A stretch of DNA of 64,000 nucleotides from Marivirga aurantiaca (GTDB taxonomy: Bacteria; Bacteroidota; Bacteroidia; Cytophagales; Cyclobacteriaceae): the NCBI RefSeq assembly GCF_016679925.1, contig NZ_JAEQBW010000003.1:372001-436000 (forward strand). The letters are read 5' to 3'. The translations under genes were made by a program, and so were the position numbers. Shown one piece after another: positions 10,168 to 29,623 of this stretch; the first letter of the stretch is position 1, and every line of letters starts with the position of its first letter. The notes beneath the pieces are model-generated. The model saw only the letters and a program-made list of their open reading frames with translations, had not been told where the DNA came from and searched no databases.

Positions 10168-11334
10168 ATGATAGTAACTAAACAAGAATATCTGGATACT
10201 TTATCGACCCTTAAAAGCAGGATAGACGAAAGTATAATTTCTGAAAAAGAAAGAAAAGCATTTCTTTTTACATCTATCAATAAACAGAAAGTTCTCTCAT
10301 CCATAGATCATTCATCTGATGTTGAATTTTATAAAGATACTGTTTTATATCAAAAATGGAGAGAAATAGATCAAAAGACTGAATTTAACATTCTCCTTGA
10401 AAATATACAGGCATCCGGAGACATTACTTTTTCGAATGACGCTAATCAAGGCCCATTTATTTTTTGCGGGTTCCATTACGGTGCTTATAATTTAATTCCA
10501 TTCATGTTGAAGAAAAAGGGGATTGAATTTGTAACTGTAGCTGTAGAGGAGAATATGATTGAAGATTTAGTGCAGTTTAAAAGAGATGTAAAGACAAAAG
10601 ACTTCTCCCAGAAATCAGATACTATTAAATCCAGTGGTTTTCAAGTCCTTTTACAAATGCTACAGGCATTAAAAAGCGGAAAGAATATATTGGTATTTAT
10701 TGATGGAGGAAACGGCACAACTAAAGTTAATGACACTGAAAAGCTAAGAAAGATCAGTTTCCTGAATGAAAAGATATTTACGAGAACCGGGGTGTTGGAA
10801 TTAGCCTATAAAATGAACACTCCAATTATTCCGATAGTAGCTAAAAGAGAAGAAGACAAAAGCGTAAATGTATTTTTCTCCTCACAGATCAGACTGGAAA
10901 AGGATTTGCCGAAGGAAGAAGCAATTGAAAATTGTGTCTCCCGGATTTATTCAGAATTGGAAACCTTTGTTAAAAAGGATCCGGCACAATGGGAAGTTTG
11001 GGATGTTTTGCACTTAATACTTGCCCCTGCAGAGGAGCACCCTTACTTAAAATATTGGAATTACTTCAGACAGAAGTTCAAACCTAAAAAGTTATTGACC
11101 GTCAATTCCGTTCTTCATTTTAATGAAGATGACTTTGGATTTTATCAAGATGAAACAAGTTGTTATGTCATTCAGAAAAGCTCTATGGACAGATTCAAAA
11201 TTTCATCTCTCACCTATAATGTTTTAAAGTCTCTGGAATACGAGAAAAGCAATATAAGCCGCCTAAGGCAGCTTTTACCGATAGATGTTCTATCTAAAAT
11301 ATTGAAGAAAAGAGTTTTTGTATCCTCAAAATAA
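10168..11334 (+). CDS. LpxL-like acyltransferase with a C-terminal PqqD/RRE-like extension
   Basis: Residues ~90-280 carry the lysophospholipid/lipid A acyltransferase fold: FCGFHYGAYNLIPF (the HX4D box, with Asn replacing the acidic residue), VFIDGGNGT, and FTRTGVLELAYKMNTPIIPIV. Such acyltransferases are common in aryl-polyene and flexirubin clusters, where they move the polyene acyl chain. The protein is 388 aa, about 80 longer than LpxL. The extra tail (about 305-388: HFNEDDFGFYQDETSCYVI, then SSLTYNVLKSLEYEKSNISR) has the strand-strand-helix spacing of PqqD-like peptide-recognition domains; this is my inference. It is the first gene of the cluster; the next start lies 7 bp after its stop. 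Confidence 0.72.
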   Translation: MIVTKQEYLDTLSTLKSRIDESIISEKERKAFLFTSINKQKVLSSIDHSSDVEFYKDTVLYQKWREIDQKTEFNILLENIQASGDITFSNDANQGPFIFCGFHYGAYNLIPFMLKKKGIEFVTVAVEENMIEDLVQFKRDVKTKDFSQKSDTIKSSGFQVLLQMLQALKSGKNILVFIDGGNGTTKVNDTEKLRKISFLNEKIFTRTGVLELAYKMNTPIIPIVAKREEDKSVNVFFSSQIRLEKDLPKEEAIENCVSRIYSELETFVKKDPAQWEVWDVLHLILAPAEEHPYLKYWNYFRQKFKPKKLLTVNSVLHFNEDDFGFYQDETSCYVIQKSSMDRFKISSLTYNVLKSLEYEKSNISRLRQLLPIDVLSKILKKRVFVSSK

Positions 11335-11341
11335 AATTATT

Positions 11342-12949
11342 ATGATCATTTCAACTGGTAAGAAATACAATAGCGAAGATTTTTATAAAGTAATATTCAC
11401 TAAAGATCCTATTCTTATTGCCGAAAGCACAATAAACAGAATGACCGAAAACTTCTCATTCTTGAAATCTTTTAGCAAAGGGAAAGTCATTTATGGAATT
11501 AATACAGGATTGGGTCCAATGGCACAATTCAAAATAAATGAAAATGAGCAAGTTGACCTTCAATATAATTTAATAAGGAGCCACAGTACAGGTATGGGGT
11601 CTGTTCTTGATGAACAAACCAGCAGAAGCGTAATGCTCGCCAGGCTCATATCTTTATCGCAGGGATACTCTGGCATCTCACCAGAGACAGTGCAGCTTTT
11701 AGCCGAACTGATCAATCTTGAAATATATCCCCACATCTACGACCATGGAGGAGTAGGTGCAAGCGGGGATTTGATACAACTTGCACATTTGGCTTTAGGC
11801 TTAATAGGTGAGGGTAAATGCCGATATAAAGGCAAAGACTATCCTATTATTGATGTAATGACTATGCACAACCTAAACCCAATACAAATTCAGTCAAGAG
11901 AAGGGCTGGCTATTCTGAATGGAACTTCTGCTATGACAGGACTTGGTGTAATTAACTTATTGAACGCCAAAAATCTTCTCAACTGGAGCTTGTCTTCTTC
12001 TGCTATGATCATGGAAATGGTGGAGTCATTTGATGATCATTATTCGGAAAGTTTAAATAAAGTAAAACCCCATAAAGGTCAGAATGATATCGCTTTCAAA
12101 CTAAGGAGCCATCTTGAAGGAAGTAGCTTAATTAGAAAAAGGGCTACTGAAGCTTTTCATGGAGAAAATGGCACCCGACATATTAAAACCAAGGTGCAGG
12201 AATATTATTCCATACGATGTGTGCCCCAGATTTTAGGCCCCATTCACGAAACAATTGAAAAAGCAGAAGAAATTATCCATAATGAAATCAACTCGGTGAG
12301 TGATAATCCTATAGTGGATGATGCTCAGAATGAGGTGTTCCATGGAGGTAACTTCCATGGTGACTACATTTCTTTTGAAATGGACAAGCTTAAAATTGCT
12401 GTAGCCAAGCTATCTGTTCTTAGTGAACGTCAACTGAATTTCTTAATGAATGATAAGTTAAACCAGATATTGCCGCCTTTCCTAAACCTGGGAACACTTG
12501 GGCTCAATTTAGGAATGCAGGGAAGCCAGTTTGTTGCTACTTCTACAACAGCGGAGAATCTTACCTTATCATTTCCGATGTACTTGCACAACATCCCATC
12601 TAATAACGATAATCAGGATGTAGTAAGTATGGGTTTTAACTCAGCACTACTCGCTAAGAAAGTCATCGAAAACACCTATCAGGTAGTATCGGTGCTCGCA
12701 TTAGCTATCACCCAAGGCATTAGTTATTTGAAAATTCGAAATGAGCTGTCGGCTAAATCAAATGCCATATTTAGAAAAATCAGAAGCTTAGTTCCTGTTT
12801 TTACAGAAGACCAAATATTAAGCGATCATTTGAAAATTGTAAATGAGTATTTATTGAACCTCAATAGAGAGTTGGTTGATACTGAATTTAAAAATGAAAT
12901 CAACTATGAACAAGAAGAAGAGATTTGCCCTGGTAACAGGAGCATCTAA
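11342..12949 (+). CDS. Tyrosine/histidine ammonia-lyase (flexirubin-type TAL)
   Basis: MIO-dependent lyase, expected to release ammonia from tyrosine to give 4-coumarate, the aryl starter of flexirubins and aryl polyenes. The MIO tripeptide lies in HGGVGASGDLIQLAHLAL, and YGINTGLGPMAQFKI precedes it. LQYNLIRSHSTG holds the specificity histidine region; GLAILNGTSAMTG, YYSIRCVPQILGP and FHGGNFHGDYIS follow. Order and wording match the Flavobacterium johnsoniae TAL family as I recall it, so tyrosine is favoured over histidine. A TTG at 11318 would extend it upstream, but ATG 11342 fits the family. Its end overlaps the KR gene by 44 bp. Confidence 0.88.
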   Translation: MIISTGKKYNSEDFYKVIFTKDPILIAESTINRMTENFSFLKSFSKGKVIYGINTGLGPMAQFKINENEQVDLQYNLIRSHSTGMGSVLDEQTSRSVMLARLISLSQGYSGISPETVQLLAELINLEIYPHIYDHGGVGASGDLIQLAHLALGLIGEGKCRYKGKDYPIIDVMTMHNLNPIQIQSREGLAILNGTSAMTGLGVINLLNAKNLLNWSLSSSAMIMEMVESFDDHYSESLNKVKPHKGQNDIAFKLRSHLEGSSLIRKRATEAFHGENGTRHIKTKVQEYYSIRCVPQILGPIHETIEKAEEIIHNEINSVSDNPIVDDAQNEVFHGGNFHGDYISFEMDKLKIAVAKLSVLSERQLNFLMNDKLNQILPPFLNLGTLGLNLGMQGSQFVATSTTAENLTLSFPMYLHNIPSNNDNQDVVSMGFNSALLAKKVIENTYQVVSVLALAITQGISYLKIRNELSAKSNAIFRKIRSLVPVFTEDQILSDHLKIVNEYLLNLNRELVDTEFKNEINYEQEEEICPGNRSI

Positions 12950-13661
12950 AGGGATTGGCAAAGCCATCGCACTTGAATTGGCAGATGAAGGATATAATGT
13001 TATCGTCAATTACAACAAAAGTGCGAAAGAAGCAGAAGAAGTAGCCCAACTAATAAGAGAGAAAGGCCAGGAGGCTGTAGCCTTAAGGTTTGACATCTCC
13101 AATAAAAATGAAGTGAATGATATTTTGGGAGGGTGGATTGAAAGCAACACTGAAAACTTTATTGAAATACTTGTAAATAATGCAGGAATAAGAAAGGACA
13201 AGCTCATGATTTTCATGAGTGATGAAGAGTGGGAAGATGTGATTAGCACCAATCTGAATGGATTCTTCTATGTAACCAGAAAAGTTTTGAAAAATATGCT
13301 TTTAAATAAATATGGAAGGATAGTAACCATTTCATCAATGTCCGGAATTAAAGGCAAAGAGGGCCAGGGGAATTATGCAGCCTCTAAAGCTGCACTCATA
13401 GGTGCTTCAAAGTCTCTTTCCAGGGAAGTGGCCAAAAAAGGAATAACAGCCAATGTAGTGGTGCCAGGCTTTATTCGAACCGAGATGACAGAACAAATAA
13501 AAGAAGAAAATTATACGCATGACATCAGTGTAAAAAGATTTGGAGAGCCTGAAGAAGTTGCATCACTTGTCTATTTCCTGAGTTCTCCCAAAGCTTCCTA
13601 TATAACAGGTGAAACCTTTATTGTAGATGGCGGTGATGGATCCTTCAGTCATAGAAACTAA
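12906..13661 (+). CDS. 3-oxoacyl-ACP reductase (FabG-like SDR)
   Basis: Short-chain dehydrogenase expected to reduce the beta-keto group in each extension cycle. It shows the NADP motif ALVTGASKGIGKAIALEL, NNAGIRKDKLM, the catalytic Ser (TISSMSGIKG), and YAASKAALIGASKSLSREVA with the YxxxK pair. The C-terminus is YITGETFIVDGGD. Length is about 251 aa. The open frame begins at 12876, but the ATG at 12906 gives a standard short N-terminus (MNKKKRFALVTG). It overlaps the ammonia-lyase end, implying translational coupling. Confidence 0.9.
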   Translation: MNKKKRFALVTGASKGIGKAIALELADEGYNVIVNYNKSAKEAEEVAQLIREKGQEAVALRFDISNKNEVNDILGGWIESNTENFIEILVNNAGIRKDKLMIFMSDEEWEDVISTNLNGFFYVTRKVLKNMLLNKYGRIVTISSMSGIKGKEGQGNYAASKAALIGASKSLSREVAKKGITANVVVPGFIRTEMTEQIKEENYTHDISVKRFGEPEEVASLVYFLSSPKASYITGETFIVDGGDGSFSHRN

Positions 13662-13691
13662 ATTTTTATCAATTAACAAAACAACATAACC

Positions 13692-14327
13692 ATGAAAAAA
13701 TTAATCATTTTATTAATCGTATTACTCCCTGTGGTGGGTGTCGCTCAAGAAAGTAAATTCAACACTGAAATGAACTCTTTAGTCAAAGGTTTAGATACCG
13801 CTAATAAACAACCCATGTTTGTTGACTTACTGAATGGCTTCTACAGAGTTTCAGAAATGGAAAAGGAAGAATGGTTACCTAAGTATTATGCTGCTTATTG
13901 CAACATTAGACTCTCCACGTTTTCTCAAGATCCGGACAAAATTGATGAGTATTTGGACAAGGCAATGAGTTTGTGTAAAGAGGTAGAGGATTATACAAGT
14001 AACTCGGAAATTCTTGCCATAATGGGGCGGATTGCCTTTATGAAAACCAGTTTGGATCCCATGACCCGCGGACCAAAATATAGTACCATGACGAAAGAAT
14101 TTTTGAATGAAGCACTTGCTATTAATCCTAAGAATCCAAGGGCGCATTTGATTTATTCACAGTATTACTACTATACTCCGGAATTTTTTGGGGGAGATAA
14201 AGAGACTTCATGCGCTCATTTGGAAAAATCTAAAAATGTTTTTGCAGTGCAAAATTCTAAAGATGGTATAGACCCAAGGTGGGGAGCTAACCTGACAGAC
14301 ATTCTGATTAAAACCAATTGCAATTAA
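13692..14327 (+). CDS. Exported TPR-like protein of the biosynthetic cluster
   Basis: A signal peptide (MKKLIILLIVLLPVVGVAQ) precedes a helical protein of about 190 residues with TPR-like pairs: YLDKAMSLCKEVEDY and FLNEALAINPKNPRAHLIYS. It then has YYYTPEFFGGDKETSCAHLE, a motif I recognise from a Bacteroidota TPR family of unknown function. It is presumably periplasmic. It sits between the ketoreductase and the ATP-grasp gene (30 bp and 6 bp gaps), so a scaffolding or transport role for the product is possible but not shown. Confidence 0.65.
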   Translation: MKKLIILLIVLLPVVGVAQESKFNTEMNSLVKGLDTANKQPMFVDLLNGFYRVSEMEKEEWLPKYYAAYCNIRLSTFSQDPDKIDEYLDKAMSLCKEVEDYTSNSEILAIMGRIAFMKTSLDPMTRGPKYSTMTKEFLNEALAINPKNPRAHLIYSQYYYYTPEFFGGDKETSCAHLEKSKNVFAVQNSKDGIDPRWGANLTDILIKTNCN

Positions 14328-14333
14328 AAGAAT

Positions 14334-15329
14334 ATGATTTTAATTCTTGGATATGAAAATTTTGAACAAGGTACTGATCCGGTAATTGACTGGCTTTTAT
14401 TTCACAAAGCCAACTTTATCAAGGTAACGCTGGATAGCCTGTTTTTCCGGGAAGAATCATTTCATATTGACGTAAATAATTCTAAGATATATTACAAAGG
14501 CATTGACCTTGGTAAAGAGGTAAATGTAGTTTGGTATCGAAGGTTCAAAGATGATAGGAAGATAGGCTATAAAGAAGCTAAACATGCGGATTTAAAAGAC
14601 AGCCTTTCACTGAATCTCCAGGCAGAGTTGTCTACCATTTTCGACTATATCTGCCACATATTAAAGGACAAGCTTTGGCTACCACCTCCAGAAAGGTTTT
14701 ACACTAATAAATTATTGAATCTTAACCTTGCTCAGCAGGCTGGTTTTCGGGTCCCTGCTACCTCTGTTACTAACAGTAAGCAAGTAATTAAAGAAACAGT
14801 GAATTTCCGAAAAAAAAGCTCAATTACAAAGCCTATATCGGAAGGAGCAAGGCGTTTGCTACAAGCGGGCAACTTAACCTTTATCCAATTTGCAAAAACG
14901 ATAGAAGCCAACATACTGGATGAATTACCGGATTTCTTTTTTCCGTCCTTAATTCAGGATAAGCTTAAGATAGATTATGAAATAAGGGTATTCTTTTTAG
15001 CCGGTAAATTATTTGCCACAAAAATAGAATCTTCAGAAGAAGAAAGCAGTGATGATAGACGGACTCAGGATGAAAGTAAATTGGTTCATAGTCCTTATAC
15101 TTTGCCGGAATCTGTTGCTGAAATGGTAAATGAATTTATGCGGTTAGCTAATTTAAATAGCGGCTGTATTGATCTGGCAAAATGTGAAAGAGATGAGTTT
15201 TTTTTCCTCGAAGTTAATCCGGTAGGACAGTATCTCTTCGAATCAAAAAAATGTAATTACTACATCGAACGGGAAATAGCCAACTGGCTGGTCCAAAACG
15301 ATAGGAGTAGTCAAATGAAAATAGCATGA
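14334..15329 (+). CDS. Grasp-with-spasm ATP-grasp peptide ligase (GwsG-like)
   Basis: ATP-grasp enzyme of the peptide-maturase type that activates Glu/Asp side chains to make macrocyclic ester or amide links (graspetides). The N-terminus MILILGYENFEQGTDPVIDWL matches the GwsG family pattern, followed by VNVVWYRRF. The ATP-grasp core shows SITKPISEGARR, the tandem acidic DYEIRVFFLAGKLFATKIES, and the metal-binding FFFLEVNPVGQYLFE. At 331 aa it has the usual length. It lies inside a polyene-type operon, and its stop overlaps the next start by four bases (ATGA). The substrate is presumably the peptide at 18801-18956. Confidence 0.82.
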   Translation: MILILGYENFEQGTDPVIDWLLFHKANFIKVTLDSLFFREESFHIDVNNSKIYYKGIDLGKEVNVVWYRRFKDDRKIGYKEAKHADLKDSLSLNLQAELSTIFDYICHILKDKLWLPPPERFYTNKLLNLNLAQQAGFRVPATSVTNSKQVIKETVNFRKKSSITKPISEGARRLLQAGNLTFIQFAKTIEANILDELPDFFFPSLIQDKLKIDYEIRVFFLAGKLFATKIESSEEESSDDRRTQDESKLVHSPYTLPESVAEMVNEFMRLANLNSGCIDLAKCERDEFFFLEVNPVGQYLFESKKCNYYIEREIANWLVQNDRSSQMKIA

Positions 15330-15565
15330 AACAGGAAGAAGATACAGATTTGACAGCTTATTTTGATATGGAAAAATTGCCTCTGGGGTATAAATTTATT
15401 CAGGCAATCCCTTTAAAAGATATTAAGGAGTTCAGGAGTTCAGATCGGTTTTCTACAAGTGCGCTACATTTTGCGACTTTATTTCAAAAAGAGACCCTTT
15501 ACAAACCCATTTCTGACTTAACATTTAATTTTTCCTTAACCAATGAAAAACAATCTAAAAGTTAG
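15326..15565 (+). CDS. Small protein of unknown function, coupled to the ATP-grasp gene
   Basis: 79 residues, no signal peptide, no membrane span, no cysteine. Visible segments include MEKLPLGYKFIQAIPLKD and FSTSALHFATLFQKETLYKP. The start overlaps the ATP-grasp stop (ATGA) and its end overlaps the thioesterase start by 23 bp, so it is firmly inside the operon. I recognise no family. It could be an adaptor, or a second substrate peptide of the ligase, since it has Ser/Thr and acidic residues; neither is shown. Confidence 0.6.
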   Translation: MKQEEDTDLTAYFDMEKLPLGYKFIQAIPLKDIKEFRSSDRFSTSALHFATLFQKETLYKPISDLTFNFSLTNEKQSKS

Positions 15566-15959
15566 CCTGGATGTTCCAATAAGGTTTAGTGAAGTTGACT
15601 CACTGTCTATTGTATGGCACGGAAACTATCTAAAGTATTTTGAGGATGTCAGGGAAGAGTTTGGAAGAAAATTCGGCTTTGATTACCTCTCGGTGAGGGA
15701 TTTAGGTTATGTGATGCCTATTATTACAGTAGACCTAAAATACAAAAAAGCCATTCGTTATGGTGATTTGCTGACGGTGAACATCTTTTATAAATATAGC
15801 AAGGCAGCCAAATTGTGTTTTGACTATACAATACAAAATCAGGAACAGGAATTAATGTGTACTGGATACTCAGAACAAGTGTTTTTAGACTTGAATGATA
15901 AGCTCCAGATTATTGATCCACCATTCTTTAAAGCATGGAAAGAAAATCAGAACGTATGA
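15543..15959 (+). CDS. 4HBT-type acyl thioesterase
   Basis: Hot-dog fold thioesterase of 138 aa. The signature VPIRFSEVDSLSIVWHGNYLKYFEDVRE corresponds to the 4-hydroxybenzoyl-CoA/FadM-like motif (RxxEvD...HxxYlxyfexxRe), followed by VDLKYKKAIRYGDLLTV. Related thioesterases occur in aryl-polyene and flexirubin clusters and are expected to release or proof-read ACP-bound chains. Its stop overlaps the next KS start (ATGA at 15956-15959). Confidence 0.85.
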   Translation: MKNNLKVSLDVPIRFSEVDSLSIVWHGNYLKYFEDVREEFGRKFGFDYLSVRDLGYVMPIITVDLKYKKAIRYGDLLTVNIFYKYSKAAKLCFDYTIQNQEQELMCTGYSEQVFLDLNDKLQIIDPPFFKAWKENQNV

Positions 15960-17092
15960 AAATGCACCAGGTATTTACTGTTTCGGACGGTCTGTATATT
16001 CCCTTGGGAAGCGATACCCAACAAGTTTTTAAGGAGGTTAAAGATGGTGTTTCATCGATTAAGGAAGGGCAGCGATTTGATTTCCCTGAAACAACCTATG
16101 TTTCTCAATTTTCGGATGATCCGAGTTTGTCTTACGAGGGTTCTTCCCGACTGGAGGCAATGGCTAAGCAATCGATTAAAAATTCAATTGCTAAGCTGCC
16201 AAGGAAGTTAGATACTGAAGATACAGGCTTCATAATATGTACTACTAAAGGAAATATTGACTTGCTGGAACCGGAAAAAACATTTTCACAACAATCAAAC
16301 GAAATGTATTTGTTCAGGCTGGCCAGCAAGCTCTCCACATATTTTGGAATACCTCATAAGCCTATAGTTATCAGCAATGCCTGTACATCAAGCCTGCTGG
16401 GGTTAATCCACGGAATGAGAATGATAATGTGCGGGAAGTACAAACATGTGATTGTTACGGGAGCAGATATTGTATCAGCTTTTACCTTATCAGGATTTAG
16501 ATCTCTTAAGGCGCTCAGTAGTTCTTATTGCAAGCCTTTTGATAATGACAGGGATGGAATTAATCTGGGAGAAGGGGCCGGCACAATCATCATTTCAGCG
16601 GATGCTTCTCTAAGCAGTTATCCGGAACAAATTATTTTGTCTGATGGATTTACTTCAAATGATGGTACACACATCTCAGCTCCACATAGAAATGGAGAGG
16701 GTTTGCATACCATCCTTAGGAAATTGGTTTCAAAACACGGAGCATCTACCTCAGACTTTATTTCGGCCCATGGCACAGGAACAAAGTTTAATGATGCCAT
16801 GGAAGCGCGGGCAATCACCCGCTCAGGTCTCCAGAATACTCCAATTCATAGCCTGAAACGGTATTTTGGACATACTTTAGGAGCCTGTGGAATAGTAGAA
16901 AGCATAATCTGCATTCAGGGAATGTTGCAGAATCTATTAATCCCATCATTGGGACTCAACAAACTTGGCACAGACGACTATCTTAACATGGTCAGGCGGC
17001 CTGAGGAACGAGAATTAAGATCATTTATTAAAATGGGAGCCGGTTTTGGCGGTTGCAATGCGGTCATACGATTTCAAAAAGCAGAGGCATAA
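15956..17092 (+). CDS. Beta-ketoacyl synthase (type II, FabF/B-like), first of the cluster
   Basis: Condensing enzyme extending the ACP-bound chain. The catalytic Cys is in VISNACTSSLLGLIHGMRM; the two histidines are in SAHGTGTKFNDAMEA and KRYFGHTLGACGIVES; a glycine-rich GAGFGGCNAVI closes the fold. It is about 378 aa. The start at 15956 overlaps the thioesterase stop and is preferred over the ATG at 15935. Its N-terminus is somewhat shorter and more divergent than that of the second KS at 19023, resembling ApeO-type stand-alone initiating KSs. Confidence 0.88.
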   Translation: MKMHQVFTVSDGLYIPLGSDTQQVFKEVKDGVSSIKEGQRFDFPETTYVSQFSDDPSLSYEGSSRLEAMAKQSIKNSIAKLPRKLDTEDTGFIICTTKGNIDLLEPEKTFSQQSNEMYLFRLASKLSTYFGIPHKPIVISNACTSSLLGLIHGMRMIMCGKYKHVIVTGADIVSAFTLSGFRSLKALSSSYCKPFDNDRDGINLGEGAGTIIISADASLSSYPEQIILSDGFTSNDGTHISAPHRNGEGLHTILRKLVSKHGASTSDFISAHGTGTKFNDAMEARAITRSGLQNTPIHSLKRYFGHTLGACGIVESIICIQGMLQNLLIPSLGLNKLGTDDYLNMVRRPEERELRSFIKMGAGFGGCNAVIRFQKAEA

Positions 17093-17729: not shown

Positions 17730-17996
17730 ATGGAAAATTTACTTAACAATCTGAAACAACAAATTATTGACCAAATCAATTTAGTGGGTCTTACTCCCGA
17801 AAGTATCGACAACGATTCTCCTATTTTCAATGAGGGACTGGGTTTGGACTCAATCGATGCATTGGAAATTGTAGTTCTTCTCGAACAACATTATGGAATC
17901 CTGGTAAATAACCCTGAAGATCTTTCTGATCACTTTGTGTCAATTAGGACACTGGCAGAGTTTATTGAAAAGAACCAGGTAAGTGCGGTAAGCTAA
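17730..17996 (+). CDS. Acyl carrier protein
   Basis: 88-residue ACP with the phosphopantetheine serine in FNEGLGLDSIDALEIVVLLE (GxDS-I/L motif). A helical C-terminus follows (SIRTLAEFIEKNQ). It carries the growing polyene chain for the neighbouring ketosynthases and is activated by the PPTase encoded 9 bp downstream. It is the only ACP gene found in the cluster. Confidence 0.93.
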   Translation: MENLLNNLKQQIIDQINLVGLTPESIDNDSPIFNEGLGLDSIDALEIVVLLEQHYGILVNNPEDLSDHFVSIRTLAEFIEKNQVSAVS

Positions 17997-18965: not shown

Positions 18966-18988
18966 GGGCACCTACTTTTTGGGTGCCC
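18966..18988 (+). terminator. Terminator/attenuator directly after the peptide gene
   Basis: A stem of gggcacc with ggtgccc and a 9-nt loop is followed by a T-rich run (to about 19002). It lies between the peptide gene and the second ketosynthase. Such a partial terminator allows abundant precursor mRNA with reduced read-through into enzyme genes. Confidence 0.85.
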
Positions 18989-22468: not shown

Positions 22469-23532
22469 ACTTTTACAACAATGATAACATCAAGGCGGTA
22501 GACGCCAGAAGTAAAGCTTACCTCATTTCATTTGCCCCCATTGTTTTCCAGGTCACCCGAATAATGGTGGACTCCGGTATCTTGGCGGAAATCCGTGATA
22601 GCAAGAAAACGGGACTTACTCTTGAAGAAATCGTGGAAGGAAAAAACATGTCTTTATATGGTGTAAGGGTTCTGCTGGAAGCAAGCCTGGGCACTGGACT
22701 TATTTACATGAATGATGATAGGTACCTGATTGGAAAAACAGGGGTTTTCATTCTTAACCAGGAAGCCATAAAAATCAATATGGATTTTGTGCACGATGTG
22801 TGCTATAAATCGATGTTTTATTTGGATGAAAGCATTCAAAATGGCAAACCGGAAGGTCTGAAACAGTTAGGTGAATGGAATACTATCTATGATGGACTTT
22901 CAGAATTGCCTGAGCAGATAAAAACAAGCTGGTTTAATTTTGATCATTACTTTTCCGATGATGCATTTCCGGTTGCACTTCCTATTATTTTACAGGAGAA
23001 ACCTAAGAAAGTAATGGATATAGGTGGCAATACAGGAAAATTCGCCATTAAACTGGCCGCGCTGGATCCGGATGTTAACATTACTATAGTTGATCTGCCG
23101 GGCCAAATAGGTATGGCCAAAGAAAACATTAAAAGAGAAGGGCTAAGCGATCGCGTTTCATTTCATGCAATGAATGTGCTGGATGAAAGTTCAGTGATCC
23201 CAGGTGGTTTTGATGTGATATGGATGAGTCAGTTTTTAGACTGTTTCTCAGAAGAGGAAAATACGGCCATCCTTAAAAAAATAGCCAGTGGCATGAGCGA
23301 GGATTCTACTATTTACATTTTAGAAGAATTTTGGGATAAGCAACGTTTGGAAGTAGCTTCTTTCAGTCTGCAACAACTTTCACTTTATTTTACAGCTATA
23401 GCCAATGGCAATAGCCAAATGTATGATAGCAAAGTGTTTTTTAGGTGCATCGAAAAGGCTGGATTGAAAATAGAAAATGAATGGAATGACCTGGGACTAA
23501 GCACCACCCTGCTTAAAGTTAAAAAAGCCTGA
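22465..23532 (+). CDS. SAM-dependent O-methyltransferase (dimerising, winged-helix type)
   Basis: 355 aa. The N-terminal ~130 residues are a winged-helix dimerisation domain (ADSGILAEIRD-like segment MVDSGILAEIRDS, and MSLYGVRVLLEASLG). The Rossmann part has the SAM motif KVMDIGGNTGKFAIKLAAL, then VDLPGQIGMAKENIKREGL, FDVIWMSQFLDCFSEEE and the IYILEEFWDKQR strand. This is the plant-type/CrtF-like OMT2 family, fitting methylation of a phenol on the aryl group. The start codon overlaps the end of the glycosyltransferase. Confidence 0.85.
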   Translation: MNFYNNDNIKAVDARSKAYLISFAPIVFQVTRIMVDSGILAEIRDSKKTGLTLEEIVEGKNMSLYGVRVLLEASLGTGLIYMNDDRYLIGKTGVFILNQEAIKINMDFVHDVCYKSMFYLDESIQNGKPEGLKQLGEWNTIYDGLSELPEQIKTSWFNFDHYFSDDAFPVALPIILQEKPKKVMDIGGNTGKFAIKLAALDPDVNITIVDLPGQIGMAKENIKREGLSDRVSFHAMNVLDESSVIPGGFDVIWMSQFLDCFSEEENTAILKKIASGMSEDSTIYILEEFWDKQRLEVASFSLQQLSLYFTAIANGNSQMYDSKVFFRCIEKAGLKIENEWNDLGLSTTLLKVKKA

Positions 23533-23575: not shown

Positions 23576-23992
23576 ATGATAGTCAATGAAAATGCACGGG
23601 AGATTCCAGCGGTAAACAATGACTTGTTCCTGATGTCCGGATGGCAAGAAAACTGCAAAGGTTATTCTGTCAATATCCACATTAACAAACCTCATCCTAT
23701 TTTTGAGGGACATTTTCCGGGTAATCCTATTATTCCGGGGGTCTGTTTACTGGTTCTTTTCAGAAAAATATTGAATTGCTCTGAAGCATTTAAAAGCTGC
23801 CGGCTTAACTGCGATACAATGAAGTTTGTCAATGTATTGAATCCAATTCTGTACGATAGCTTTGAGGTGGAAATAGTCTCAAACAGCGAGACAAATAAAG
23901 TGAAAATAGAAGCTAAGTCCGACAGCACCTTATTTGCAGTGCTTCTCGGAAGTATAAATAAGCATTCTTATGAAATGAGCATAAATCTATAA
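23576..23992 (+). CDS. 3-hydroxyacyl-ACP dehydratase (FabZ/ApeI-like hot-dog)
   Basis: 138 aa with the HPIFEGHFPGNPIIPGVCLLVLF motif of FabZ-type dehydratases (HFPGxPxxPGV, including the catalytic His). The rest includes KFVNVLNPILYDSFEVEI. It is expected to dehydrate the beta-hydroxyacyl-ACP intermediate to give the conjugated polyene. It is preceded by a 43-bp gap, and followed by a 95-bp gap with a small GC hairpin at 24046-24061. Confidence 0.85.
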   Translation: MIVNENAREIPAVNNDLFLMSGWQENCKGYSVNIHINKPHPIFEGHFPGNPIIPGVCLLVLFRKILNCSEAFKSCRLNCDTMKFVNVLNPILYDSFEVEIVSNSETNKVKIEAKSDSTLFAVLLGSINKHSYEMSINL

Positions 23993-24087: not shown

Positions 24088-25398
24088 ATGAAAAACTACT
24101 TTACATATAGCGATCACCCGGTACTTGTTTCAAAGCCTCATCAAAATTTACAAACGGGAAAGCTTCAGGAGCTCTTTGTTTATCTGAACAGCTTTTCCCC
24201 ATTTTATAAAAAAATATTTGAGGAGAAAGGGATTGGTTTGAACCAAATCCGGGAGATAAGTGACATTAGGGAATTGCCTTTTACAGAGAAAGATGATTTC
24301 TGTCTTGGGGAAAGTTTTTACTGCGTTCCTGAAGAAAAAGTAGTTGATATAGTCAATACGTCAGGGACCACAGGTGAACCTGTAGACATTATATTGACAG
24401 ATAGCGATTTGGAAAGACTGGCTGTAAATGAATATATGGCCTTGACTTGTGCCGGTGTTTCCTCTCTGGATAAAATTCAGATTATGGTCACTATGGATCA
24501 ACGATTCATGGCAGGAGTAGCATACTTTCTTGGAGTTAAAAAGATTGGAGCCAGCATGATCAGAACAGGTATTGCTCCCATAGCTTCCCAACTAAATGAT
24601 CTTCTGAGGTTGAAGCCTACTGTATTAATAGCTGTTCCGAGTTATGTGGTGAGGCTTATTGAATATGCACAAGAAAGAAATATAGATTTAAATAAAAGTA
24701 GTGTTAAGAAAATTATTGCTATTGGGGAGTCTATCAGGAATGATGATTTTTCATTTAATAATTTAGGTAAGAAAATCGTTAAAAACTGGGGAGTTGATTT
24801 ATTTTCCTCCTATGGAGCTTCTGAAATAGCAACTGCATTTACAGAATGTAGTGCGCAGCAAGGAGGGCATGCTCCCACAGACCTGGTTCATATTGAGTCT
24901 GTAGATGAATTAAACAGGCAGGTTGAGCCGGGCCAGATTGGTGAATTGGTTGTTACTACTTTTGGCGTGGAGGGAATGCCTTTGTTACGATATAAAACAG
25001 GGGATTTGTGCCGGGTATATTATGATAGGTGCTCCTGCGGAAGAACAAGTCCAAGGATAGGCCCAATACTAGGTAGAAAAAACCAGATGATTAAGTATAA
25101 AGGCACCAAGATTTACCCTGCTTCAGTCATTGATGCCATCCACAGCCTTGATACTATTAAAGATTATTTTATTGAATTAAGCTCAAATGAATACGGGCTT
25201 GACTTACTAACAATATATCTGACAGGTATGAGAGAACCTTCAGACCTGAATATTGACGAAATAAGAACCTATATCAAGTCGAAAATCAGGGTTTCCCCAC
25301 TTGTTATTGTTGAACATTTGGAAAATATTATGAAGCGTCAACGCATCCCGCTAAAACGCAAAAACATTAAGTTTCAGGATATCAGAAAAAGCCATTAA
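24088..25398 (+). CDS. Phenylacetate-CoA-ligase-like AMP-forming enzyme
   Basis: Adenylate-forming ligase of the PaaK/F390-synthetase type, about 436 aa. The P-loop is IVNTSGTTGEPVDIIL; SSYGASEIATAFTE is the aromatic core; LLRYKTGDLCRVYYDRC is the hinge region, followed by the CSCGRTSPRIGPILGRKNQM segment and the YPASVIDAIHSL C-terminal domain. It is expected to activate 4-coumarate from the ammonia-lyase and so prime the synthase. The GTG at 24061 is unlikely; ATG 24088 is preferred because it is separated from the hairpin and matches the family N-terminus. Confidence 0.88.
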   Translation: MKNYFTYSDHPVLVSKPHQNLQTGKLQELFVYLNSFSPFYKKIFEEKGIGLNQIREISDIRELPFTEKDDFCLGESFYCVPEEKVVDIVNTSGTTGEPVDIILTDSDLERLAVNEYMALTCAGVSSLDKIQIMVTMDQRFMAGVAYFLGVKKIGASMIRTGIAPIASQLNDLLRLKPTVLIAVPSYVVRLIEYAQERNIDLNKSSVKKIIAIGESIRNDDFSFNNLGKKIVKNWGVDLFSSYGASEIATAFTECSAQQGGHAPTDLVHIESVDELNRQVEPGQIGELVVTTFGVEGMPLLRYKTGDLCRVYYDRCSCGRTSPRIGPILGRKNQMIKYKGTKIYPASVIDAIHSLDTIKDYFIELSSNEYGLDLLTIYLTGMREPSDLNIDEIRTYIKSKIRVSPLVIVEHLENIMKRQRIPLKRKNIKFQDIRKSH

Positions 25399-25400
25399 TT

Positions 25401-26612
25401 ATGAAAGACGTTATGTCGATTACCAGCCATACTCAAATTTTAGAACAAATTCAGCTGACGAAAATTGATTCCAAAAACCATATATTAAAATATCATTCAC
25501 GGCATTATAATATAGGTGAAATATTATACAAAATAATTTTTCACTTACAGAGTCATAAGCCTCTAAGGGATATTTTGGATACAATTTATCATGAGCATGA
25601 GGTGCGTATTGAAGAGGAAGAGCTGGAAAAAATTATATCAGATACTTTTGAGAAAGTAGATGCTCCCAAAGAAAAGGATACCAATTCTTATATTTATGGA
25701 AGGGTAAAATTGATCGGTAAAGATTTGATAAAAAAAATCACCCCATTTTTCACCTTTCTTTTTAAGAAATCCATCTTTCTTACGCTTTTCACTTTATTCT
25801 CACTTACCAGCTTATATTTTATCTATTACCTTTATAGTCAGGGTTTAATGGAGTCTTATTTCTCTATTGGAGATTATCCTGCCTATCTAATCGTCTATTA
25901 TGTATTAATTATAGTAATAGGCATGTTACATGAATTTGGACATGCTATAGCCGCCAGACGCCATAATATTGATTCTGAAGAAATAGGTTTTGGGTTCTAT
26001 TTAGTATTTCCGGTTCTTTTTACAAATCTAACCGCTATCTGGAGCTTACCTAAGAAAACCCGTGCCCTCATTAATATGGGAGGTATTTATATTCAGCTTT
26101 TTGTCAATGTGATACTGATTATCATTTTCTTTTTGATGCCCAAGAGCATTGAATTAGTGGTACTCGTGAAATCTGTCTTTATTATTAACAATGTGATGTT
26201 AATGATTTCTATTAATCCATTTTTCAGAAACGATGGGTATTGGATTTACAGTGATTTATTTGGTATTAATAACCTAAGTGAAAAAGCAAGCAAGTACCCC
26301 ATGGTTTTGTTTAACAGATTAAAGGCAGGGAAAATCTTTAACTTTTTCTCGCTAAAAGAGATTCCATTGGCACTATACTCTTTGCTTACCTATCTTCTTT
26401 TTGCCGTTTTAATTACCGCTTTGTGTTTGCTAACCTATAAGAATTACTTCCTGGTGAAAGATTTTTTCACCAATCCTAAGCCGGAAAGCTCTTTCGAACT
26501 TATTTCAAGTATCGCCAAAGCATTATTCTCCCTGGCTCTGAATGCAATGTTCCTTTTTGTTACTACTAAAAGGATCGGAAGACTTGTTAAACGATCTTTT
26601 ATTTGGGTTTGA
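25401..26612 (+). CDS. PqqD-like domain fused to an M50-type membrane metallopeptidase
   Basis: 403 aa. The N-terminal ~90 residues (YNIGEILYKIIFHLQSHKPL, then DILDTIYHEHEVRIEEEELE) look like a PqqD peptide-recognition domain. A membrane peptidase follows with about six spans. The zinc-binding helix reads IVIGMLHEFGHAIAARRHN (HExxH), and NPFFRNDGYWIYSDLFGINN supplies the third ligand (NPxxxxDGY). Such PqqD-M50 proteins mature or export peptides in RiPP operons; here it may cleave the leader of the 51-aa peptide. It starts 2 bp after the CoA ligase. Confidence 0.83.
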   Translation: MKDVMSITSHTQILEQIQLTKIDSKNHILKYHSRHYNIGEILYKIIFHLQSHKPLRDILDTIYHEHEVRIEEEELEKIISDTFEKVDAPKEKDTNSYIYGRVKLIGKDLIKKITPFFTFLFKKSIFLTLFTLFSLTSLYFIYYLYSQGLMESYFSIGDYPAYLIVYYVLIIVIGMLHEFGHAIAARRHNIDSEEIGFGFYLVFPVLFTNLTAIWSLPKKTRALINMGGIYIQLFVNVILIIIFFLMPKSIELVVLVKSVFIINNVMLMISINPFFRNDGYWIYSDLFGINNLSEKASKYPMVLFNRLKAGKIFNFFSLKEIPLALYSLLTYLLFAVLITALCLLTYKNYFLVKDFFTNPKPESSFELISSIAKALFSLALNAMFLFVTTKRIGRLVKRSFIWV

Positions 26613-26614
26613 TT

Positions 26615-27601
26615 ATGGAAAATTATTTCACTCAGTTCCCTCATATTGTTACTGTAGAGGGGAAGGATGCGGCTGCTATTTATGATTTCAAACATGAAGT
26701 TTGCCATAAGATTCCTTTGGTACTTTTTGAAATCATGCAAGACCTTAAGCACCACTCTTCAAAATCCATTGAATTAGAATACGGAAGTGATAATAGTGAA
26801 TTGCTTAACAAATTCTTCTATTATATTAAGGTAAAGAAATGGGGCAGATGGGGCGAACATAAAGAGCGTGTTCAGGAGTTGGATCTTAACTGGTATTGCC
26901 CGGCCCATATTCAAAATGTGCAGCTTGAGTGGAGTACCACATATTATAATTTCCCTTTATTAATGGAACAATTAAATGAATTACTTTGCCGCCATATTGA
27001 AATTAGAGCGGATTTAAGTGATTCATCTAAATTTCACAAATTCATTAAAGATTTAGGTAATCTTAATCATAAATGCTTCCGAACAGTAGAACTTCATCTG
27101 GATATTGGTTTCCCTTTAACCACAAAGTTGATAGATGACCTGGTAAATGCCAGTGCTAAGATTGAGAATGTAATGCTGTACGGTTTGGTGGATAAACCAC
27201 TAACCGAACAAAAGAGGGTAAAATGGATAAGCAGCTCCATGGCGGAGATATTAACAGAAAATAGCAATTCCGGGCCTTATGAAAATAAGTACATCGTGAA
27301 CCTCTCCTTCTTTTGTGAATCGCAACAATACAATCCTTACTACAACAGGAAAATTGGCATAACTGAAAAAGGGGCAATTAAAAATTGCCTTAAGCTTGAT
27401 AAGGTATTCGGAAATGTAAATGATCCTCATTGGATGAAAATAATTGAAACAGAAGACTTTCAGCTATTATGGCATGCCTCTGCGGATAAGATAATTGATG
27501 TCAAAGACAATGAATTAAGGTATTCATTATTTATTACCCAACCATTGGAAATGATAAATAATCAACAATTTAAACTGACAAGCAGTGAATTCAAAACCTA
27601 A
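26615..27601 (+). CDS. Grasp-with-spasm SPASM-like peptide maturase (GwsS-like)
   Basis: About 328 aa. I recognise the family pattern from the C-terminal section NPYYNRKIGITEKGAIKNCL, then KVFGNVND, which corresponds to GwsS proteins (YFNRKLxI..NGEIKN...FGNI). Six cysteines are visible but no CxxxCxxC radical-SAM motif, so cluster binding is uncertain. The middle is leucine-rich with VELHLDIGFPLTTKLIDDL. The start is ATG 26615, 2 bp after the M50 stop; a TTG at 26603 would overlap. It overlaps the next SDR by 17 bp. It presumably binds or modifies the peptide together with the ATP-grasp enzyme. Confidence 0.72.
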   Translation: MENYFTQFPHIVTVEGKDAAAIYDFKHEVCHKIPLVLFEIMQDLKHHSSKSIELEYGSDNSELLNKFFYYIKVKKWGRWGEHKERVQELDLNWYCPAHIQNVQLEWSTTYYNFPLLMEQLNELLCRHIEIRADLSDSSKFHKFIKDLGNLNHKCFRTVELHLDIGFPLTTKLIDDLVNASAKIENVMLYGLVDKPLTEQKRVKWISSSMAEILTENSNSGPYENKYIVNLSFFCESQQYNPYYNRKIGITEKGAIKNCLKLDKVFGNVNDPHWMKIIETEDFQLLWHASADKIIDVKDNELRYSLFITQPLEMINNQQFKLTSSEFKT

Positions 27602-28352
27602 AATTGCCATTGTCACCGGAGGGAGTAAAGGCATAGGGAAATCCATTGCTTTGCAACTTGCTTCAGAGGGGACTCTGGTGATCATCCAGTATTGCAAAGA
27701 TAAGGATCAGGCCACAGACACCCTGCACAACATACAGGCAGCCGGTGGGATCGCCTACCTTGTTCAGGCAGATTTTTCAAAGCCGGAAGAAGCTGAAAAC
27801 TTTTTTGAGGAAAAGATTGACCCCATCACCAAAGAGATCAATAAGGAAGATACCCATTTTGACATCCTGGTAAATAATGCAGGTGTTTTTAAAGAGGGAG
27901 ATATTCACAGTGTAACAGCAGACGAATTTGATTTCATCTTTAATGTGAATGCTAAATCTGTCCTTTTGTTGATGAAACAAGCATTTAGCAGAATAAACAG
28001 TGGAGGAAGGATCATCAATATTTCATCAGGAGCCTCAGTTCAAGCGGATTCAAAAAGTTTGCTATATGGGCTAAGCAAATCAGTAATTGACAATTTGACC
28101 CTTGCTTTAACTGCTGAATACGGCAAAATAGGTGTAACCGTAAATGCTATTGCACCGGGGCCAACTGAAACAGCTATGGTAAAGGAATTTTCCAACGAAA
28201 TGGCAAAAAAATTTATAGGTAGAAAAACTGCGCTTAACCGCATTGGTCAGCCGAATGATATTGCCAAAGTAGTTTCTTTCCTTATAAGTGAAAATGGAGA
28301 GTGGGTGAATGGCACCCGATTGGAAGTAAATGGAGGCTACAATAAAATTTAA
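27585..28352 (+). CDS. Short-chain dehydrogenase/reductase, second of the cluster
   Basis: 255 aa SDR with IAIVTGGSKGIGKSIALQL (cofactor), LVNNAGVFKEGDI, the SSGASVQADSKSLLYGLSKS stretch (Ser, Tyr, Lys) and VNGTRLEVNGGYNKI at the C-terminus. The GTG at 27585 is the only reasonable start; it overlaps the GwsS-like gene by 17 bp. It may be a second beta-ketoacyl reductase or may reduce a product carbonyl. Confidence 0.85.
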   Translation: MNSKPKIAIVTGGSKGIGKSIALQLASEGTLVIIQYCKDKDQATDTLHNIQAAGGIAYLVQADFSKPEEAENFFEEKIDPITKEINKEDTHFDILVNNAGVFKEGDIHSVTADEFDFIFNVNAKSVLLLMKQAFSRINSGGRIINISSGASVQADSKSLLYGLSKSVIDNLTLALTAEYGKIGVTVNAIAPGPTETAMVKEFSNEMAKKFIGRKTALNRIGQPNDIAKVVSFLISENGEWVNGTRLEVNGGYNKI

Positions 28353-28356
28353 AAAT

Positions 28357-29061
28357 ATGATAACTGAAAATACACTTCGCATCATTGAACAATACCAAAA
28401 CAGGCCAGAGTTCAAGAAAATGTTTGAGAAATATCACCACACACAAATCATGCACAATACAAGGGCAGCTGAAATCATAGCCCCAAAGGTTATGGAATTA
28501 GTAAAGCCTGAAAGTGTTATTGATGTTGGTTGTGGGCTGGGATCCTGGTTGCAGGTCTTTAACCACCTTGGAGTAGAAAATATTCAAGGTATAGAAGGAG
28601 AACACTTGCGAATGCGTGATCTTTTGGTGGATCAAAAACTTATCCATTTGATGGATCTGGAAAAACCGATAGAGCTTGAAGAGAAATTTGATTTGGTGGT
28701 GTGCCTGGAAGTTGCCGAACATCTTTCCGAAGAGGCCGCTGATGATTTTGTGACAAGTTTGACTGAACTGGGGGATGCCATTTTATTTTCTGCAGCAATT
28801 CCGTTGCAAGGTGGGCTTAACCACATTAATGAGCAATGGGCGGACTATTGGCAGGAGAAATTTGAGAAGAAAGGATTTGGGTTTCATGACTTAATAAGGC
28901 CTTTGTTTTGGGATAATGAAGAGGTAGAATGGTGGTACCGCCAAAACATGTTCTTGATCCTGAAAGATGGAGTATATCCTTATCAAAAAGAGGCTACTAT
29001 CAGACGCGTAGTCCATCCTGATGCATTTACTTATTACAGAAAACAGCAAGTGTCCCAATAA
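28357..29061 (+). CDS. Class I SAM-dependent methyltransferase
   Basis: About 234 aa (open frame from 28330; ATG 28357 lies 4 bp after the SDR stop and is preferred). SAM binding: VIDVGCGLGSWLQVFNHLG, ENIQGIEGEHLRMRDLL; post-motif FDLVVCLEVAEHLSEE. It resembles small-molecule or ubiquinone-type methyltransferases (UbiG-like); the acceptor is unknown. With the OMT at 22465 the cluster has two methyltransferases. A weak terminator follows at 29118-29144. Confidence 0.82.
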   Translation: MITENTLRIIEQYQNRPEFKKMFEKYHHTQIMHNTRAAEIIAPKVMELVKPESVIDVGCGLGSWLQVFNHLGVENIQGIEGEHLRMRDLLVDQKLIHLMDLEKPIELEEKFDLVVCLEVAEHLSEEAADDFVTSLTELGDAILFSAAIPLQGGLNHINEQWADYWQEKFEKKGFGFHDLIRPLFWDNEEVEWWYRQNMFLILKDGVYPYQKEATIRRVVHPDAFTYYRKQQVSQ

Positions 29062-29117
29062 TTTCGATAGATTGTCAATGGATAATCCTGATCTCCTTTC
29101 TGATTTATCCTCATTAA

Positions 29118-29144
29118 AAAAGCATGATTATTTAATCAGCTTTT
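29118..29144 (+). terminator. Possible weak terminator
   Basis: The outer arms aaaagc and gctttt, with an inner tgatt/aatca pairing and one bulged base, are followed by cctttt. It lies between the methyltransferase and the final dehydratase, so it may only partly stop transcription. Confidence 0.5.
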
Positions 29145-29179
29145 CCTTTTAATTTTTTCTAACTTAACCCATTTGATAA

Positions 29180-29623
29180 GTGCCTATTATTTCTAAAAGG
29201 GAAATATATAATTATTTGCCGCACGCAGAACCTTTTGTGATGATTGATGAAATGCTTTCAGTTGAACAAAATAAAGCTGTATCCTCTTTCAAAATTTCTG
29301 AAAACAATTTGATGTTGGACCGACAAGAACTCAATGAAGGAGGGCTGGTTGAAAACATTGCTCAAACTTTTGCTGTCAAAGCAGGATTTCAGAATATATC
29401 CAGAGGACTGGCTCCTCAGGTAGGATATGTTGCAATGATTAAGAAACTTAAGGTTTATTCTCTGGTGCCGGTAGGGGAGACAATCATTACAGAGATAATT
29501 GTAAAAACTGAAAAACCTACTTTTGTGATTGGAGAAGGGGTAACATATTGGAAAGATATTATTATTGTGAGCTGCGAACTGATGATATTTATCAATGATG
29601 AAAAATCTTCCGATGAAGAATAA
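29180..29623 (+). CDS. ApeP/FabZ-like dehydratase (hot-dog), last gene of the cluster
   Basis: 147 aa, GTG start at 29180; the family N-terminus (SKREIYNYLPHAEPFVMIDEM) fits with this start. The LPHxxPFxxID signature marks FabZ-like 3-hydroxyacyl-ACP dehydratases such as ApeP. Further on, NEGGLVENIAQTFAVKAGF is the conserved helix region. It should work beside the 23576 dehydratase; APE clusters often have two. It ends inside the stem of the terminator at 29612-29653. Confidence 0.82.
   Translation: MPIISKREIYNYLPHAEPFVMIDEMLSVEQNKAVSSFKISENNLMLDRQELNEGGLVENIAQTFAVKAGFQNISRGLAPQVGYVAMIKKLKVYSLVPVGETIITEIIVKTEKPTFVIGEGVTYWKDIIIVSCELMIFINDEKSSDEE

Follow-up and report, generated by a model that had tools for sequence, protein, structure and literature searches.

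A flexirubin-type aryl-polyene gene set interleaved with a divergent grasp-with-spasm peptide system in Marivirga aurantiaca, and its possible conjugated product

Organization of the locus

Genes for an aryl polyene and genes for a modified peptide are mixed in a single array in the genome of Marivirga aurantiaca. The array was analysed within a 64,000-nucleotide stretch of this genome (assembly GCF_016679925.1, contig NZ_JAEQBW010000003.1, positions 372,001 to 436,000), the whole of which is called the window and provides the coordinates used here. At positions 10168-29623 it holds 23 open reading frames (ORFs), all on the + strand, in which a flexirubin-type aryl-polyene set is interleaved with a divergent grasp-with-spasm (gws) set of the kind that matures ribosomally synthesized and post-translationally modified peptides (RiPPs; Table 1). 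The junctions between the ORFs are mainly overlaps or short gaps, the widest gaps measuring 156, 118, 95 and 66 bases, and the ORF of 51 amino acids (aa) is flanked by those of 156 and 66 bases. The hairpin that follows it has the most GC pairs among the 19 terminator-like sites listed (14.0 expected); a hairpin just after the gene of a RiPP precursor is a common arrangement.

An earlier note on this DNA, made from the sequence alone, had read the array as a hybrid cluster, and all the ORFs that it named are present on the + strand where it had placed them. It left without interpretation the acyltransferase at 10168, the glycosyltransferase at 21188, the methyltransferases at 22465 and 28330 and the TPR-like protein at 13692, and named no coupling enzyme, for which the acyltransferase is here the candidate. 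Both overlaps that it described, at 15326 (ATGA) and 27585, exist; the partner gene at 15326 is an LPL-type gws accessory and not a polyene gene.

Table 1. Features of the operon and of its 3' border in the window
Feature	Position	Strand	Evidence
LpxL/LpxM-type acyltransferase with extra C-terminal RRE-like domain (residues ~308-388)	10168..11334	+	Pfam PF03279 45 bits; predicted model
Tyrosine ammonia-lyase (TAL, FlxA)	11342..12949	+	NF053541 758.6 bits, cut-off 700; ASG motif
Short-chain dehydrogenase/reductase (SDR) ketoreductase, FlxB-like	12894..13661	+	NF053542 332 bits, cut-off 340 (narrow miss)
TPR-like protein, signal-peptide-like start (by eye)	13692..14327	+	Conserved in hybrids; no family at meaningful E-value
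GwsG-type ATP-grasp peptide macrocyclase	14334..15329	+	TIGR04192 193 bits, cut-off 230; hybrid clade 99/95
LPL-family gws accessory, 79 aa ('LPL...KPIS' motifs)	15326..15565	+	Homologues directly 3' of GwsG in many gws loci
4HBT-type thioesterase (TE)	15543..15959	+	TIGR00051 65.9 bits, cut-off 68.7
Ketosynthase (KS) KS1, Cys-His-His	15956..17092	+	NCBIfam search; motif check
Short KS-like protein without active-site motifs	17096..17716	+	No family; position as in canonical flexirubin clusters L106-L108
Acyl carrier protein (ACP), LDSID	17730..17996	+	NF006617 68.9 bits, cut-off 70
Phosphopantetheinyl transferase-like protein (by eye)	18006..18644	+	No NCBIfam match at E 1e-10
RiPP precursor, 51 aa; leader ...VELEERLEMVQL, core QLSEEAAASLLCDFGSVEVQVAE	18801..18956	+	Homologues in 5 other hybrids, L095, L113
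Hairpin, 9 pairs, 6 GC, attenuator-like	18966..18988	+	Directly 3' of precursor stop
Ketosynthase KS2, Cys-His-His	19023..20204	+	NCBIfam search; motif check
Chain-length factor (CLF), no active-site Cys motif	20212..21180	+	PF13723; hybrid CLFs on one side of branch 98/97
MGT-family glycosyltransferase	21188..22468	+	TIGR01426 182.8 bits, cut-off 260; 42% homologues in L099, L102
FlxJ-like methyltransferase	22465..23532	+	NF053543 517.1 bits, cut-off 560
Hot-dog dehydratase 1 (by eye)	23576..23992	+	Homologues in L101, L102, canonical L108
4-Coumarate:CoA ligase FlxY	24088..25398	+	NF053551 524 bits, cut-off 520
M50 intramembrane metalloprotease, HEFGH at residue 177	25401..26612	+	PF02163 34.9 bits, cut-off 27.2
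GwsS-type protein without SPASM cysteines	26615..27601	+	TIGR04193 131.7 bits, cut-off 175
Second SDR reductase	27585..28352	+	NCBIfam search
S-adenosylmethionine (SAM) methyltransferase, weakly UbiG-like	28330..29061	+	23 bits, cut-off 103; 44-48% homologues in L099, L102
FabZ-like dehydratase 2	29180..29623	+	39.3 bits, cut-off 113
CPBP-type membrane protease (by eye), possible operon member	29865..30587	+	Homologues beside hybrid in L099, L102

Recurrence of the mixed gene set in other genomes

The window GwsG was aligned with its then best relative, and two short patterns taken from this alignment were used to scan the genomes of 84,980 species, each represented once, a procedure that misses distant kin. 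The scan returned 18 loci with GwsG relatives, which were searched with the 23 operon proteins. Five of them are hybrids, with polyene KS genes around GwsG on one contig, and belong to Chitinophaga tropicalis (L083), a Flavobacteriaceae metagenome-assembled genome (MAG; L084), two Lewinella MAGs (L086 and L087) and Flavobacterium chilense (L099). Another belongs to Neolewinella aurantiaca (L095). The flanks fetched for the remaining twelve, which are gws loci, gave no polyene match, a negative that carries little weight for L085 and L092 and least for L093 (4.7 kb), where the flanks are short. The earlier note would have abandoned its reading if polyene and Gws genes occurred only separately in related genomes; they are linked at 5 of the 18 loci, within one GwsG clade (99/95).

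Gene order differs among the hybrids and content differs in part. The compact, contiguous set of C. tropicalis comprises the precursor, M50, TAL, KS1, short KS, ACP, KS2, CLF, FlxY, acyltransferase, GwsG, LPL and GwsS, while F. chilense carries ACP, KS2, CLF, glycosyl- and methyltransferases, an SDR, GwsG, GwsS, M50, acyltransferase and precursor. L102 continues L087 on the same contig and completes a near-full Lewinella copy of the window gene set; L101 was joined to L084, and L103 to L086, by content and not by assembly. Homologues of the TPR-like protein stand directly before GwsG in L084, L086, L087 and L099 and downstream in L083. The mixed membership is largely kept through this re-ordering in at least three families (Chitinophagaceae, Flavobacteriaceae and Lewinellaceae), and since a similar mix recurs in five other genomes, the interleaving of polyene and peptide genes is not due to chance. 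The explanation that two neighbouring clusters have simply run together was rejected, the membership being re-ordered yet largely retained in six genomes.

In the GwsG tree (59 rows), the six hybrid proteins, namely the five and that of the window, form one clade, starred in the tree (99/95); it lies inside a 19-row clade (100/100), which is itself part of a 41-row clade (100/100) with 22 canonical rows. In the CLF tree, five hybrid CLFs stand on one side of a starred branch (98/97) and 23 canonical or other CLFs on the opposite side, with long branches that warn of error. KS2 groups five of six hybrids (99/97) and places C. tropicalis elsewhere, and the KS1 tree, of six rows only, groups the hybrids at 66/80. 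Most simply, these trees would mean that the polyene and peptide halves were combined once, after which the unit was passed on by descent or exchange and parts of it were later lost. GwsG matches were found in 14 of 194 genomes of an order sample (E 1e-10) and in 15 of 395 of a phylum sample (E 1e-20), own genome included, and the relatives in these Bacteroidota samples are at most 39% identical; most of these matches were viewed with about 1.5 kb of flank and five with about 19 kb.

The polyene half

The polyene set proposed in the earlier note is real and is described more exactly as flexirubin-type than as aryl polyene in general. FlxA and FlxY exceed their NCBIfam cut-offs, and FlxB and FlxJ fall narrowly under theirs. 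The FlxA and FlxY activities of Chitinophaga pinensis have been demonstrated in vitro (PMC3992019), and priming with a coumaroyl unit, also claimed earlier, agrees with the two window proteins; the claim does not extend to the 39-kb contig of F. chilense, which has no TAL or FlxY match. In two congeners of the family sample FlxY had no match at E 1e-40.

Separate canonical flexirubin clusters are present in three other hybrid genomes, those of F. chilense (L106), the Flavobacteriaceae MAG (L107) and C. tropicalis (L108), and their gene order, TE-KS1-short KS-ACP...KS2-CLF, is also that of the window; the separate cluster of C. tropicalis contains a second TAL. The operon shares FlxA and FlxY with flexirubin clusters such as the flx cluster of C. 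pinensis (PMC3992019). It differs from canonical clusters in its CLF, only ~23-32% identical to theirs, and in its acyltransferase, which has 27% identity over 95 aa to that of L108 and no listed match to those of L106 and L107, carries an extra domain and has lost the HX4E motif. Moreover, the window adds the precursor, GwsG, LPL, GwsS and M50 genes, and the dialkylresorcinol genes DarA and DarB were not recognised by NCBIfam among the 23 ORFs, a result limited to these ORFs and obtained with no dedicated DarA/DarB search. The operon was accordingly rejected as an ordinary flexirubin cluster, given the 98/97 split of the CLFs and the coexistence of canonical clusters in three relatives.

The precursor peptide and its maturation genes

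The 51-aa ORF has the layout of a RiPP precursor, being short, encoded beside maturases and made, in the alignment of precursors, of a conserved leader and a variable C-terminal core. The small ORF, whose conservation the earlier note had made decisive for its reading, has homologues in all five other hybrids with 33-55% identity over the whole short protein, in at least two copies in three of them. In its own genome the precursor search gave one match only, and matches occurred in 2/395 genomes of the phylum sample and 2/395 of the class sample, overlapping sets that both include the own genome and a genome designated G210. The most conserved part is the leader, [VIA]xLE[ED]RLE[MT]V. The core motif SLLCDF is common to the window, Lewinella and F. 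chilense; the other cores contain SICTD and SGICK (Flavobacteriaceae MAG), SLSLD (C. tropicalis) and SARCD, SVRCD, SDRCD or TRRCD (L095), so that the hybrid cores have little in common besides the S-x3-D stretch. The pattern [ST]x3D is found in eight of nine distinct hybrid cores (shuffled mean 2.5; 0/5000 shuffles as high) and in all five L095 cores used (3/5000 shuffles as high), in both cases among related sequences and with a motif picked after inspection. The count leaves out the second L101 copy (identical core), an L084 precursor cut at the contig end and, of the ten ORFs with this leader in L095, five that are near-copies or interrupted by Ns. As a hypothesis, this core motif could give rise to a Ser-x3-Asp ring.

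The labels GwsG-like and GwsS-like given earlier to the ORFs at 14334 and 26615 hold in that TIGR04192 (GRASP_w_spasm) and TIGR04193 (SPASM_w_grasp) are the nearest families, with both proteins under the cut-offs. Other hybrid GwsG proteins are likewise under the TIGR04192 cut-off of 230 (L083 224.6, L087 203.9, L099 188.1 bits), and a RimK family search of the own genome gave no match in the window. The cysteines of the SPASM domain are missing from GwsS in 18/18 distinct rows of the window's clade, and a four-Cys set is present in 16/17 distinct canonical GwsS, the remaining one having three (alignment of 41 rows including duplicates; the GwsS of MAG G712 was not recovered). Because of this loss, GwsS in the window's clade is probably a scaffold and not an iron-sulphur enzyme. 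In the GwsG subclade of the window and L083-L102, which has a motif near FEQGTDPVIDWL, the GwsS partners have lost the SPASM cysteines, also at the 12 plain loci whose fetched flanks show no polyene genes.

Homologues of the LPL protein directly follow GwsG in many gws loci, although in L087 and L099 they were recognised by eye only. The family was named in PMC8939145, where it is said to be always directly upstream of the SPASM enzyme; in the window, LPL directly follows GwsG and is not next to GwsS, which lies 11 kb away beyond polyene genes. This 79-aa ORF was also tried as a precursor and rejected, being the LPL accessory known from other gws loci. Of the earlier designation 'PqqD-M50' for the ORF at 25401, the M50 part is borne out by the family match and the HEFGH motif and the PqqD part is not, since no Pfam family was recognised in the N-terminus and its hhalign comparison with the RRE-like domain of the acyltransferase gave a probability of 8.5. 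The protein resembles daptide/epipeptide proteases (NF041824 66.5 bits, cut-off 300).

An acyltransferase with an additional domain

The predicted model of the acyltransferase matches LpxM best (5knk, E 5e-11) and also PatA. Its extra C-terminal domain, modelled alone (predicted local distance difference test 89.1), consists of strands followed by three helices, and no Pfam match was found for the C-terminal domains of these acyltransferases. The top 15 Foldseek matches of this domain in the PDB have E-values of 0.024-0.54, none below 0.001, and 14 of them are proteins that we take to bear a RiPP recognition element (RRE): TbiB1 with leader, TigE, ThcOx, PbtF, McbBCD, a sactipeptide radical SAM enzyme and a lasso B1 protein. 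In the VIA structure comparison (Z at most 8.0), NisB and an unrelated regulator tied at the top and winged helices other than RREs were also listed; the NisB region is presumably the leader-binding domain. The best matches point to a winged-helix RRE (PqqD-like) fold, which may bind the leader.

Its homologues measure 342-400 aa in the hybrids and L095, and the canonical flexirubin acyltransferases, read in three clusters of the same genomes as hybrids, have 293-296 aa and all end before the extra domain. Only the L108 enzyme among them matches the window's; two of the three were identified through 42-57% identity to the others. In the HX4E motif, the His is kept and the Glu replaced in 7/7 aligned acyltransferases (N, I, Y, R, L, L, L) and in that of L113 (L), while the motif is intact in 3/3 canonical ones. 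No GNAT acyltransferase was matched by NCBIfam among the 23 ORFs, on ten of which Pfam was run.

The leader, acyltransferase and M50 genes outside the hybrids

The leader, the acyltransferase and the M50 protein occur together in all eight genomes in which this leader was found, two of which have no polyene genes nearby (L095 and L113); seven of the eight were reached via GwsG, only G210 being an independent draw. Neither the acyltransferase nor M50 was found in the fetched flanks of the 12 plain gws loci. In N. aurantiaca, L095 holds GwsG, LPL, GwsS, M50, the acyltransferase and an arginase-family enzyme without polyene genes in 21 kb, and its positions 196-7572 carry ten leader-bearing ORFs (one running into Ns), mostly with RCDR cores, with the arginase-family enzyme and the acyltransferase beside the gws genes. 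The whole genome gave one KS2 match at E 1e-30 or better, 34% identical. Arginine could possibly be converted here to ornithine by the arginase-family enzyme and the ornithine then acylated. In G210, L113 (8781-13169) encodes a radical SAM/SPASM enzyme, three precursors with the same leader (NGCCS[FW]TDS cores), an acyltransferase with the extra domain, which matches that of F. chilense through this domain (22%, E 2e-10), and M50; there is no GwsG or polyene match in 20 kb.

Core maturase and acyl source therefore vary around a constant trio of leader, acyltransferase and M50. The constancy of this trio is the strongest argument that the peptide with this leader is the substrate of the acyltransferase, and that in the hybrids the polyene synthase may serve as a specialised acyl supplier. 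It can be proposed tentatively, at a little under even odds, that the RRE-bearing LpxL-type enzyme is the first of a new acyltransferase class acting on RiPPs and defines a new acylated RiPP family within the Bacteroidota, in which the leader would recruit the enzyme, the acyl donor (aryl polyene or ordinary fatty acid) and the maturase (GwsG; GwsG with arginase; radical SAM enzyme) would be swappable, and the window would contain the polyene-graspetide member.

Proposed product and alternative explanations

We infer, with a rough probability of 0.55, that the operon makes one covalent conjugate, an aryl-polyene-acylated graspetide. In the proposed pathway, FlxA and FlxY would supply a 4-coumaroyl-CoA starter, which KS1, KS2, CLF and ACP, with the SDRs and dehydratases, would extend to an aryl polyene held on the ACP. 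Alongside this, the precursor of 51 aa would be bound via its VELEERLEMVQL leader, and GwsG, aided by the LPL protein and the cysteine-less GwsS, would link Ser37 to Asp41 (S-LLC-D) as an ester. The LpxL-type acyltransferase would dock onto the same leader through its RRE-like domain and transfer the ACP-bound polyene to the peptide; the peptide would thereby replace the dialkylresorcinol, the polyene acceptor in flexirubin. The N-terminus, Cys40 or a Ser could be the acceptor, the leader would be removed by the M50 or the CPBP protein, and the glycosyl- and methyltransferases would decorate the conjugate. The ring, the acyl transfer, the acceptor atom and the order of steps are given as we infer them. 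One product, with a polyene 'joined to, or co-produced with' a modified peptide, was already the proposal of the earlier note and is supported by the linkage and the small-ORF conservation described above; of its two options, joining is favoured because the acyltransferase carries the RRE-like domain.

Several observations weigh against the conjugate. The RRE matches have E-values of 0.024 or weaker and share the VIA list with winged-helix proteins that are not RREs. Because the Glu of HX4E is replaced, acyl transfer would need another mechanism or would not occur. Near the cluster of C. tropicalis neither an SDR nor a dehydratase was matched, and the F. chilense contig has no match for TAL, FlxY, KS1, short KS, thioesterase or either dehydratase; F. 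chilense may borrow starters from its separate flexirubin cluster, use others or make another product, and this lack of local starter genes lowers our confidence in the conjugate. One hybrid precursor (L084) has no Ser-x3-Asp, no acceptor residue is fully conserved, the cores of C. tropicalis have no Cys, and the shuffle test takes no account of relatedness or of the after-the-fact choice of motif. Finally, KS2 does not unite all hybrids (2 changes).

The same loss of Glu and the lack of starter genes in F. chilense would also suit an operon with two products never joined, an aryl-polyene pigment and a separate graspetide (e.g., a signal or toxin), as would the precursor, M50 and acyltransferase set that stands without polyene genes in L095 and L113. 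This explanation is unlikely, although it deserves to be kept in mind: it does not account for a membership largely kept through re-ordering in at least three families with a single GwsG clade, nor for the RRE-like domain on the acyltransferase, and the 23 ORFs include no recognised dialkylresorcinol gene that would offer the polyene another acceptor. The RRE-like domain is in turn compatible with loading of the polyene on a peptide that is only a temporary carrier, on which the chain would be tailored before release as a small glycosylated or methylated aryl polyene; the glycosyl- and methyltransferases of the operon and the hybrid cores, alike in little beyond S-x3-D, fit such a role. The macrocyclase GwsG and the differing cores of L095 and L113 suggest instead that a mature peptide is the product, which makes a carrier quite improbable. 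Slightly more improbable still is an acyltransferase that has become a pseudo-enzyme, bringing the leader to the membrane for M50 while the polyene exits via the thioesterase. Loss of the HX4E Glu in 8/8 enzymes and the presence of a thioesterase speak for it; the motif His and the LpxM/PatA fold are however retained, and canonical flexirubin clusters have a similar thioesterase too.

Neighbouring genes

Downstream of the operon, the window encodes a lantibiotic dehydratase at 32715-35315 (+; thiopep_ocin 67.9 bits, cut-off 48.45). A LytTR regulator and a histidine kinase, at 35300-36019 (-) and 36115-37110 (-), converge on it. Inspection by eye of the ORFs listed at 31.7-48 kb revealed no LanC. 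This trio also adjoins gws genes on a plasmid of Hymenobacter canadensis (L114), and weaker matches to it lie upstream of the C. tropicalis hybrid (L104), that of the dehydratase being weak and fragmentary; the dehydratase was considered as a putative further maturase of the 51-aa peptide. An UpxY-type antiterminator is located 3' of the operon at 31922-32425 (-; 144.7 bits, cut-off 100), and another is found ~3 kb upstream of GwsG in L084. On the other side, a CatA-like O-acetyltransferase is encoded at 6874-7527 (-; 133.6 bits against the CatA_like_1 cut-off of 300).

Relation to known systems and significance

The window shares with grasp-with-spasm graspetides (TIGR04192/TIGR04193; 'branch 5' with LPL in PMC8939145) homologues of the ATP-grasp enzyme, LPL and GwsS and a Ser/Thr...Asp core motif. 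It differs from them in that both maturases are under the NCBIfam cut-offs, GwsS has no SPASM cysteines and is 11 kb from LPL, the precursor leader has no GG motif, and a polyene set and an acyltransferase are added. Surveys have noted polyketide-type enzymes near graspetide genes, such as polyketide cyclases and a polyketide synthase (PKS; PMC13097080; PMC8939145, branch 6), and the excerpts of these two papers name no aryl polyene, flexirubin genes or acyltransferase at their loci. Among polyketide-RiPP hybrid lipopeptides, goadvionins and lipolanthines (PMC13060382) resemble the present proposal in that the cluster has its own acyl chain, which one of its acyltransferases is proposed to attach to a ribosomal peptide. 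They are lanthipeptides with GNAT acyltransferases, whereas in the window the acyltransferase is LpxL-type, the acyl group would be an aryl polyene and the peptide a graspetide. The selidamides, lanthipeptides fatty-acylated on a side chain (PMC13060382), recall L095, where an arginase-family enzyme and an acyltransferase could turn Arg into Orn and then acylate it; the L095 enzyme is LpxL-type and not GNAT, graspetide enzymes and not a lanthipeptide synthetase stand beside the precursors, and the window has no arginase and no Arg or Lys in the core.

A limited literature search found no description of a joint flexirubin/grasp-with-spasm pathway, a zero that says little since 'grasp-with-spasm' alone also matched nothing. 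Compared with known PKS-RiPP hybrids, the acyltransferase type, the acyl group and the peptide class would all be new. If the proposal is true, a pigment pathway that marks the Bacteroidota is linked to ribosomal peptides, and the light-absorbing polyene would make the product easily visible by ultraviolet/visible spectroscopy and mass spectrometry. The operon would also provide a candidate coupling enzyme outside the GNAT family and a precise leader and core, and thereby a handle for finding other acylated RiPPs.

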